Assembly (NCBI GenBank): GCA_001798135.1
Contig: MGRJ01000009.1
Coordinates: 1 to 64,000 of the forward strand
Direction of reading: 5' to 3'
Length of the DNA stretch: 64,000 bases
Source: Deltaproteobacteria bacterium RIFCSPHIGHO2_02_FULL_40_28
Lineage (GTDB): Bacteria; UBA10199; 2-12-FULL-40-28
The notes beneath the pieces are model-generated. The model was not told where the DNA came from, searched no databases, and saw nothing but the letters and a program-made list of their open reading frames with translations. The translations under genes were made by a program, and so were the position numbers. Position 1 is the stretch's first letter, and each line of letters opens with the position of its first letter. This document shows, piece after piece, positions 4,953-7,014 of the stretch.

Positions 4953-4982
4953 TTGACTTTGTGGTGAAATACTCTTTATAAT
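4953..4982 (+). promoter_or_regulatory. Promoter of the 23-residue lysine-rich gene
   Basis: -35 TTGACT (4953-4958), an 18-base spacer, and a consensus -10 TATAAT (4977-4982). The transcript would begin near 4989 and reach the AAGGAGGG ribosome-binding site at 5011 after a leader of about 22 bases. Confidence 0.7.
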
Positions 4983-5023
4983 TCATAAGATAAGTTAACC
5001 CACACCATAAAAGGAGGGCCAAC

Positions 5024-5095
5024 ATGGCAGCAAAGAAGAAGAAGGCTAAGAAGTCTTCAAAGAAAAAATCTTCTTCAAAAAAGAAGAAAAGATAG
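5024..5095 (+). CDS. 23-residue lysine-rich microprotein
   Basis: A monocistronic short gene: strong promoter (4953-4982), a textbook ribosome-binding site AAGGAGGG six bases before ATG, 23 codons, and an intrinsic terminator 26 bases after the stop. The product is M-A-A followed by lysine, serine and alanine only, ending K-R; about 13 of 23 residues are Lys and none are acidic. That composition resembles the basic tails of histone H1-like or HU-like proteins, which suggests binding to DNA or RNA, but no domain can be named. The complete expression unit argues strongly that it is translated at a high level. Confidence 0.8.
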   Translation: MAAKKKKAKKSSKKKSSSKKKKR

Positions 5096-5120
5096 TTTGC
5101 ATTGCATCTTATTAAAAAAT

Positions 5121-5155
5121 AAAAACCCGCTACCAGTTAGCGGGTTTTTTCTTTT
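5121..5155 (+). terminator. Intrinsic terminator after the lysine-rich microprotein
   Basis: Perfect 9-base stem AACCCGCTA/TAGCGGGTT (5124-5132 and 5138-5146) with a 5-base loop CCAGT and a following T-run broken by one C. The next gene starts with an ATG at 5156, directly after the T-tract. Confidence 0.9.
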
Positions 5156-6178
5156 ATGGGCACGTTGAAAAAATTTAAACCTTTAAAGGGCATTACTGTT
5201 GTTGATCTCTCAAGACTTTTGCCAGGGCCTTACTGTTCCTTTGTTTTGGCAAGCCTTGGAGCCAAGGTGATGAAAGTTGAAGATAGTGAGTTGGGAGATT
5301 ATTTAAAACATTATCCACCCTTTGTATCAAAAGGTGAAGGTCGGGAAGGTCGAGAAGGACTTTTTTATCACGCCCTTAATTTTAATAAAAAGAAAATCAC
5401 TCTCAATCTCAGAGATAAAAAGGGAATTAAAACCCTTTATCAATTATGCAAAACATCTGATGTGGTGATTGAATCTTATCGTCCTGGTGTTTTTTCTAAA
5501 ATGGGATTTTCTTACCAAAAACTAAAATCAAAAAATAAAAAAATTATTTTAGCTTCTATTACAGGGTATGGCCAAAAAACTTCCATGAGTCATCTTGCTG
5601 GGCATGATCTTAATTTTATGTCGTTGGCTGGATTAATTAAGGAAGAAGCACTCCCTTCAATTCAGTGGGCAGATTTAGTAGGTGGAGGAATTTGGTCGGC
5701 TTTGATGATTATGAGTGCCCTCTATCAAGCAAACTTCCAGGGGAAGGGAAGCCATTTAGATCTTTCGATGAGTCATGCCATGCGCCTCACAGGCATGCTT
5801 CCCATTCTTTTAAGTCAGTTTGGTGGAGAATTTTTTTATTTATCCGGGGGGTTGGCTCGTTATGGAATTTATAAAACCAAGGATAACGAAAAAATAGCCC
5901 TGGCAGCCCTAGAAACTAAATTTTGGAACCCATTTTGTGACATTATTAAAAAACCAGAGTGGAAAGATGGGGAGAAAACTTTTTTAGATGCAAATCCTCA
6001 AATCAAACAAGAATTAAAAGAGATTTTTCTTCAAAAAACACGTGAAGAATGGACAAGACAGTTTCAAAATTTAGATTTATGCTTCACCCCTGTGTTAAAC
6101 CTTCAGGAAATTTTTTCTAAAAAGGATCCCTTAAGTGGAGATTTTTTGATTCCCTTTCCCAAGGGTTGCTTTTTATGA
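5156..6178 (+). CDS. Family III CoA-transferase, alpha-methylacyl-CoA racemase-like
   Basis: A 340-residue member of the CaiB/BaiF family. The N-terminal LKGITVVDLSRLLPGPYCSF and LGAKVMKVED form the CoA-binding start of the fold; DVVIESYRPGVFSKMGFSY is also typical. AGHDLNFMSLAG (H150) and a later D173 in WADLVGGG match the His/Asp pair of the alpha-methylacyl-CoA racemase branch, so racemisation of a 2-methylacyl-CoA is more likely than CoA transfer. It is somewhat shorter than most family members. The ATG sits at the end of the preceding terminator T-tract with no visible ribosome-binding site, so the start is uncertain. It overlaps rsmI (ATGA). Confidence 0.82.
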   Translation: MGTLKKFKPLKGITVVDLSRLLPGPYCSFVLASLGAKVMKVEDSELGDYLKHYPPFVSKGEGREGREGLFYHALNFNKKKITLNLRDKKGIKTLYQLCKTSDVVIESYRPGVFSKMGFSYQKLKSKNKKIILASITGYGQKTSMSHLAGHDLNFMSLAGLIKEEALPSIQWADLVGGGIWSALMIMSALYQANFQGKGSHLDLSMSHAMRLTGMLPILLSQFGGEFFYLSGGLARYGIYKTKDNEKIALAALETKFWNPFCDIIKKPEWKDGEKTFLDANPQIKQELKEIFLQKTREEWTRQFQNLDLCFTPVLNLQEIFSKKDPLSGDFLIPFPKGCFL

Positions 6179-6864: not shown

Positions 6865-6900
6865 TAGAAGAAGCGGGTGGCTTTATGACTTTACGGCATT

Positions 6901-6992
6901 ACGGGTGACGCCAGGAGGAGGGCTTCCGACAGCGCGCAATCCGCTTCAGGCGGATGAGCACTGGCGGGAAACCTCCTGGCGGCAGGACCCGT
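6901..6992. repeat. GC-rich palindromic element between rsmI and rluA-like gene
   Basis: A 92-base imperfect palindrome: ACGGGT (6901-6906) pairs with ACCCGT (6987-6992), CGCCAGGAGG (6909-6918) with CCTCCTGGCG (6972-6981), and an inner hairpin ATCCGC-TTCA-GGCGGAT sits near the middle. It is much richer in G+C than the flanking genes. It resembles a REP/RAYT-type mobile palindrome and has no reading frame of note. Confidence 0.6.
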
Positions 6993-7014
6993 TTCTGGCA
7001 ATCCACGAACGTGT

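Follow-up and report, generated by a model that had tools for sequence, protein, structure and literature searches.

Does a reading frame of 23 codons, most of them for lysine, form a genuine gene, and what could such a small and highly charged product do in the cell? The question is raised by positions 4953–5155 of the window, which is the whole 64,000-nt stretch of DNA that was analysed. A sequence-only reading had described here a full, separate unit, built for strong expression of one tiny basic protein, and had likened the product to the basic tails of histone H1-like proteins. The unit and the gene that follows it contain these features:

4953–4982, forward strand: sigma-70-type promoter, with the −35 element TTGACT (4953–4958), an 18-nt spacer and the −10 element TATAAT (4977–4982), 11 of 12 positions matching
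4998–5006, forward strand: conserved leader box ACCCACACC, between the predicted transcription start (about 4989) and the Shine–Dalgarno sequence
5009–5017, forward strand: Shine–Dalgarno sequence AAAAGGAGG, containing GGAGG, 6 nt 5′ of the ATG
5024–5095, forward strand: microprotein gene of 23 codons, MAAKKKKAKKSSKKKSSSKKKKR, recognised by its open reading frame and its homologues
5121–5155, forward strand: intrinsic terminator, with a stem of 12 pairs and a 5-nt loop (5121–5149) and a T-tract reaching 5155
5156–6178, forward strand: CoA-transferase family III gene (PF02515, Pfam E 1.5e-68), a syntenic partner in the order

The signals named earlier, namely the near-consensus promoter, the ideal ribosome-binding site and the intrinsic terminator, are all found at these positions. 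The estimate of the product, about 13 lysines in 23 codons with only Ser, Ala, Arg and Met besides, agrees with the exact count of K13, S5, A3, M1 and R1; lysine thus makes up more than half of the peptide, and the net charge is about +14. The transcript folds with z = −4.1, the terminator being the main contributor, and the leader box followed by GGAGG occurs only once in the window's whole genome. Judged by its signals, the small gene is probably strongly expressed, and the conserved frame described below also supports the proposal that a tiny basic protein is encoded here by a gene suited to strong expression.

The order is represented by eight genomes, five of which (G000, G002, G004, G005 and G006) have an intact region upstream of the CoA-transferase gene; another, G001, was left out of this synteny count, because only a fragment is present there, at the end of a contig. 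In all five intact genomes, which span families f1, f2, f3 and f5 (the window's own and three others), a Lys-rich ORF of 19–28 codons lies directly upstream of the CoA-transferase gene on the same strand. The promoter, with its −35 and −10 elements and the flank CTTTATAATTC, aligns in G002 and G004 as well as in G000, and the promoters of G006 and G005 consist of TTGACA with CATAAT or TATAAT. The leader box is identical in G000, G002, G004 and G005, and G006 has ACCCAACACC, with one inserted base; the terminator was aligned in G004 and G002. Among the peptides of the order, residue order varies and composition is kept. By sequence comparison, the ORF at 5024–5095 is a real, conserved gene, and four families of the order have kept its frame, promoter, leader box, Shine–Dalgarno sequence and terminator. 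The search of relatives for short Lys-rich genes with conserved flanks, proposed earlier as a check, therefore speaks for the gene, and the lack of conservation that had been named as grounds for abandoning it was not what was found. Other matches to ACCCACACC followed by a Shine–Dalgarno sequence, in G003 and G004, were considered as homologues and rejected, as their genes are not Lys-rich. As a separate observation, the window's own genome encodes a protein of 151 aa that starts with poly-Lys and is preceded by GGAGG (L056:6376–6831, reverse strand; L058:374–796, forward strand); it has a homologue in G002 and only weak Pfam matches of coiled-coil type.

The independence of the unit had been overstated. 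It does have its own promoter, Shine–Dalgarno sequence and terminator, but it is not fully separate, because the ATG of the CoA-transferase gene (5156) abuts the T-tract with zero gap. As this leaves no room for a promoter, the CoA-transferase gene is probably dependent on read-through of the terminator. In other words, the unit is probably a strong gene trailed by a weak one and not an isolated gene. Further along the window, positions 6890–7010, between rsmI-like and rluD-like genes, are GC-richer and contain repeat-like bases.

Maintenance of the peptide itself is indicated by two genomes of different genera, G017 and G021, which encode the same 30-mer in genes that differ by nine synonymous and zero non-synonymous changes (out of 17 and 73 sites, respectively; the pair was not picked by identity). 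Pooling 30 cross-species pairs gives a pN/pS of 0.10, which is no proof of selection, since these pairs were picked by peptide identity and Lys-codon pattern. Codon choice is also skewed. The window gene uses nine AAG and four AAA codons for lysine, so that AAG accounts for 9/13 compared with 26% in large window ORFs nearby. The longest A-run is below simulation (P below 0.05) in 11 of the 13 class genes examined, which serves as supporting evidence only, as the simulations used the window's codon usage for all genes and the other genomes have backgrounds of their own. AAG enrichment together with short A-runs fits efficient, slip-free translation and argues against both a stalling leader and an RNA-only gene. 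On these comparisons, purifying selection acts on the peptide, and most likely it is the composition that is selected, not the exact sequence.

Beyond the order, a free-standing Lys-rich gene behind GGAGG was found in 29 of 46 class genomes (31 genes, 15–149 aa), a count in which the other genomes were searched non-exhaustively and several are incomplete. This set was gathered by pattern searches and from arginine-decarboxylase loci, with GGAGG as a search condition; a scored terminator accompanies 26 of the 31 genes. The downstream neighbours vary and include CoA-transferase, arginine-decarboxylase, agmatinase-family, kinase and M16 peptidase genes. At 12 of the 17 full-length PvlArgDC loci, arginine decarboxylase is immediately preceded by the Lys-rich gene, in the same orientation. 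Peptides at arginine-decarboxylase loci measure 21–91 aa, and those of family f12 (33, 34, 50 and 91 aa) are built of (V/A)KKKK repeats. Upstream of an arginase-family gene, G015 encodes a 149-aa (KATKRK)n protein. A polyamine connection of the Lys-rich gene is possible. As the general reason for the gene it was rejected, because no PvlArgDC gene was found in the eight genomes of the window's order, five of which keep the peptide; the linkage is for the same reason best read as inherited gene order. Family f7 also has a second gene, of 27 aa (MYKKxKxxKKKxRKKKGKKVxxLRYRG), which faces the Lys-rich gene (L208:1–3045, L029:1288–1371, L207); the two share a bidirectional terminator, and the C-terminus of the 27-mer is conserved in three genera.

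Similar genes were sought outside the class by scanning named genomes with a strict pattern of Shine–Dalgarno sequence, ATGGC, Lys codons and three Lys codons near the stop. At least 119 stretches matched, and at least 106 of them hold a Lys-rich ORF of 13–23 codons. Record titles among the matches listed include Acidobacteria, Eisenbacteria, Nitrospira, Chloroflexi, Planctomycetes, Omnitrophota, Spirochaetes, Bdellovibrionales, Myxococcales, Kineosporia, Patescibacteria and DPANN archaea; most matches are metagenome-assembled genomes, so that single cases may be mis-binned, and the cultured Kineosporia babensis and K. rhizophila also carry such genes. A whole-genome scan with the strict SD–ORF pattern was positive in 10 of 385 genomes, and the reversed-pattern control gave 0. 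A terminator-like hairpin lies within 110 nt downstream at 52 of 106 listed loci, as opposed to 9 of 530 random places. Among the matches listed, 107 genes in other phyla have 59% K, 24% A and 5% T, with acidic residues almost absent and no aromatics except His; because the strict pattern favours Lys codons and short length, such ranges of composition and length are partly made by the pattern. The cross-phylum set is likewise defined by the pattern, its sequences being too simple to tell common descent. For the matches listed, the closest gene downstream has the same orientation at 55 and the opposite orientation at 41 of 96 loci, and no neighbour family is shared across phyla, hence none that would link the genes to chromosome biology. 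With neither a fixed neighbour strand nor a shared neighbour family, the genes outside the class are autonomous. Two 3′ elements were seen in passing. Deltaproteobacterial-type loci (L102, L108, L185, L193, L195) have a conserved CCCTCCTTAxTCTCAGGCGA 3′ of the Lys-rich ORF, which contains an anti-SD and shows no pairing with the gene's own Shine–Dalgarno sequence in minimum-energy folds. Eisenbacteria loci (L085, L091, L114, L119, L144, L174) have the common element GGACCTGGCACGTCC ahead of the terminator.

Several other explanations may be considered. A small RNA, or a chance ORF between promoter and terminator, would fit the very short length and the absence of a family match. It is highly improbable in view of the synonymous-only divergence of G017 and G021, the SD–ATG–ORF arrangement that 29 of 46 genomes conserve while their codons vary, the AAG bias, and an Rfam search of 16 homologue loci (L003 with the window gene included) that returned tRNAs only. 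Were the peptide an attenuator leader, ribosome speed over the Lys codons would set terminator formation and hence read-through into the downstream gene. Transcription of the CoA-transferase gene, whose ATG is right behind the T-tract, probably does pass the terminator, and the location upstream of a polyamine-synthesis gene at 12 of 17 class loci would suit such control. Attenuation is nevertheless quite unlikely: in folds of G000, G004 and G002 there is no shared antiterminator, the 5′ arm without its 3′ arm pairing with different, mostly weak partners; the downstream genes differ by clade, with no constant biosynthetic gene, and outside the class the nearest one is often on the opposite strand (41 of 96 loci among the matches listed). 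Moreover, the 91- and 149-aa forms are too long for a leader, and a codon choice that avoids A-runs is the opposite of a stalling design.

Two further explanations accept the protein and give it another task. As an encoded stand-in for polyamines, it would balance the charge of total nucleic acid as a soluble counter-ion, or store lysine. The 12 of 17 arginine-decarboxylase loci argue for this, but that linkage may reflect nothing more than inherited gene order, the eight genomes of the window's order lack PvlArgDC with the peptide kept in five, and family f7 has arginine decarboxylase with the peptide gene located elsewhere; such a role is very unlikely. A ribosome- or RNA-associated microprotein of the bTHX kind, stabilising rRNA instead of DNA, is unlikely as well. 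Size, charge and the strong Shine–Dalgarno sequence agree with it, composition alone cannot separate RNA from DNA binding, and rsmI-, rluD-, rimP-, nusA- and infB-like genes lie nearby (named from translations; only the methylase was profile-tested). Against it stand the free residue order and the tenfold length range, which would not be expected of a protein shaped to a single rRNA site, the zero PDB matches, and a translation-gene neighbourhood that is not common to most class homologues.

The reading favoured here, with modest confidence, is that the gene encodes a minimal polycation resembling an H1 tail, which binds nucleic acid by charge and compacts it. The strong Shine–Dalgarno sequence would lead to efficient translation of a disordered polycation, which would act like a stretch of histone H1 tail standing alone. 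It would bind DNA, and probably RNA too, by charge and independently of sequence, and so neutralise and compact the nucleic acid. The H1-tail reading is favoured by the growth in length through repeats (21–91 aa) at arginine-decarboxylase loci, as in Hc2, and by the Lys-rich tails that proteins of the same order and class carry on SWIB, a domain likewise present in topoisomerase/SWIB fusions. The gene, its signals, its conservation and the selection on it come from comparing sequences, and from these we infer expression, nucleic-acid binding and a role in the nucleoid. In one study, oligolysines with at least 16 Lys gave stable particles with plasmid DNA, and K8 gave less stable ones (PMC4991294), which makes binding plausible, though not certain, at 13 Lys and one Arg. 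With 13 Lys among its 23 residues, the peptide is near the lower end of the lengths that give stable condensation, and the polycation could serve RNA or ribosomes just as well.

Tentatively, and with chances just short of even, free-standing oligolysine microproteins (13–34 aa, mostly Lys and Ala) may be a widespread, unnamed class of prokaryotic genes that spans many bacterial phyla and extends to some archaea; they would be a minimal counter-ion, H1-tail-like or polyamine-like, overlooked by standard annotation. If the peptides are abundant, many uncultured and some cultured prokaryotes carry a nucleic-acid counter-ion missing from family libraries, and the H1-like chromatin protein would here take its smallest possible form. 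The question is testable in cultured carriers, such as K. babensis and K. rhizophila.

Searches of Pfam, NCBIfam, PDB and Rfam gave zero matches for the gene or its stand-alone relatives. The comparison with H1-like proteins made in the sequence-only reading is supported by the length variants up to 91 aa, the 149-aa repeat protein and the Lys-rich SWIB tails, but not by an Hc1/Hc2 family match: Pfam assigned no family to the 23-mer or to relatives of 25, 28, 30, 91 and 149 aa, in a search whose HMMER filters disfavour low-complexity queries, and the sole HC2 match, of a SWIB-fused relative, was weak (E 0.1). Features of the Hc1/Hc2 type are present, namely richness in Lys and Ala, hardly any acidic or aromatic residues, and variation in repeat length. 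A 132-aa protein from the same order carries a Lys-rich H1-like tail on its SWIB domain (98.5 bits), and shorter fusions of this kind occur in two class members; searched for SWIB, the window's own genome was negative, as were all control genomes. Catalogues of small proteins exist (PMC11364881), and text searches of the literature for H1-like small proteins and peptide strings returned no description of such microproteins.

Among known systems, bTHX and other tiny basic ribosomal proteins are similar in size and charge. Proteins of the bTHX type are fixed in sequence and occupy one set rRNA site, whereas the microproteins keep composition only. Synthetic oligolysines K8–K32 for DNA packaging have nearly the same chemistry and length, but they are used outside the cell, unlike a gene-encoded microprotein (PMC4991294). 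The tails of SWIB-domain and topoisomerase/SWIB proteins (PF02201; L210, L202, L204) resemble the peptide in their Lys/Ala/Val repeats and occur in the same order and class; there the Lys-rich part is a tail on a domain, whereas the microprotein is the tail alone. Chlamydial Hc2 (HctB; PF07382) has 165–237 aa, whereas the window's peptide has 23 aa, no Pfam match and no known developmental cycle. Like Hc2, the peptide is rich in Lys and Ala and has no folded domain; Hc2 varies in length by the number of Lys-rich pentamers (PMC2848022), and the class homologues of 21–91 aa at arginine-decarboxylase loci vary in length as Hc2 does.
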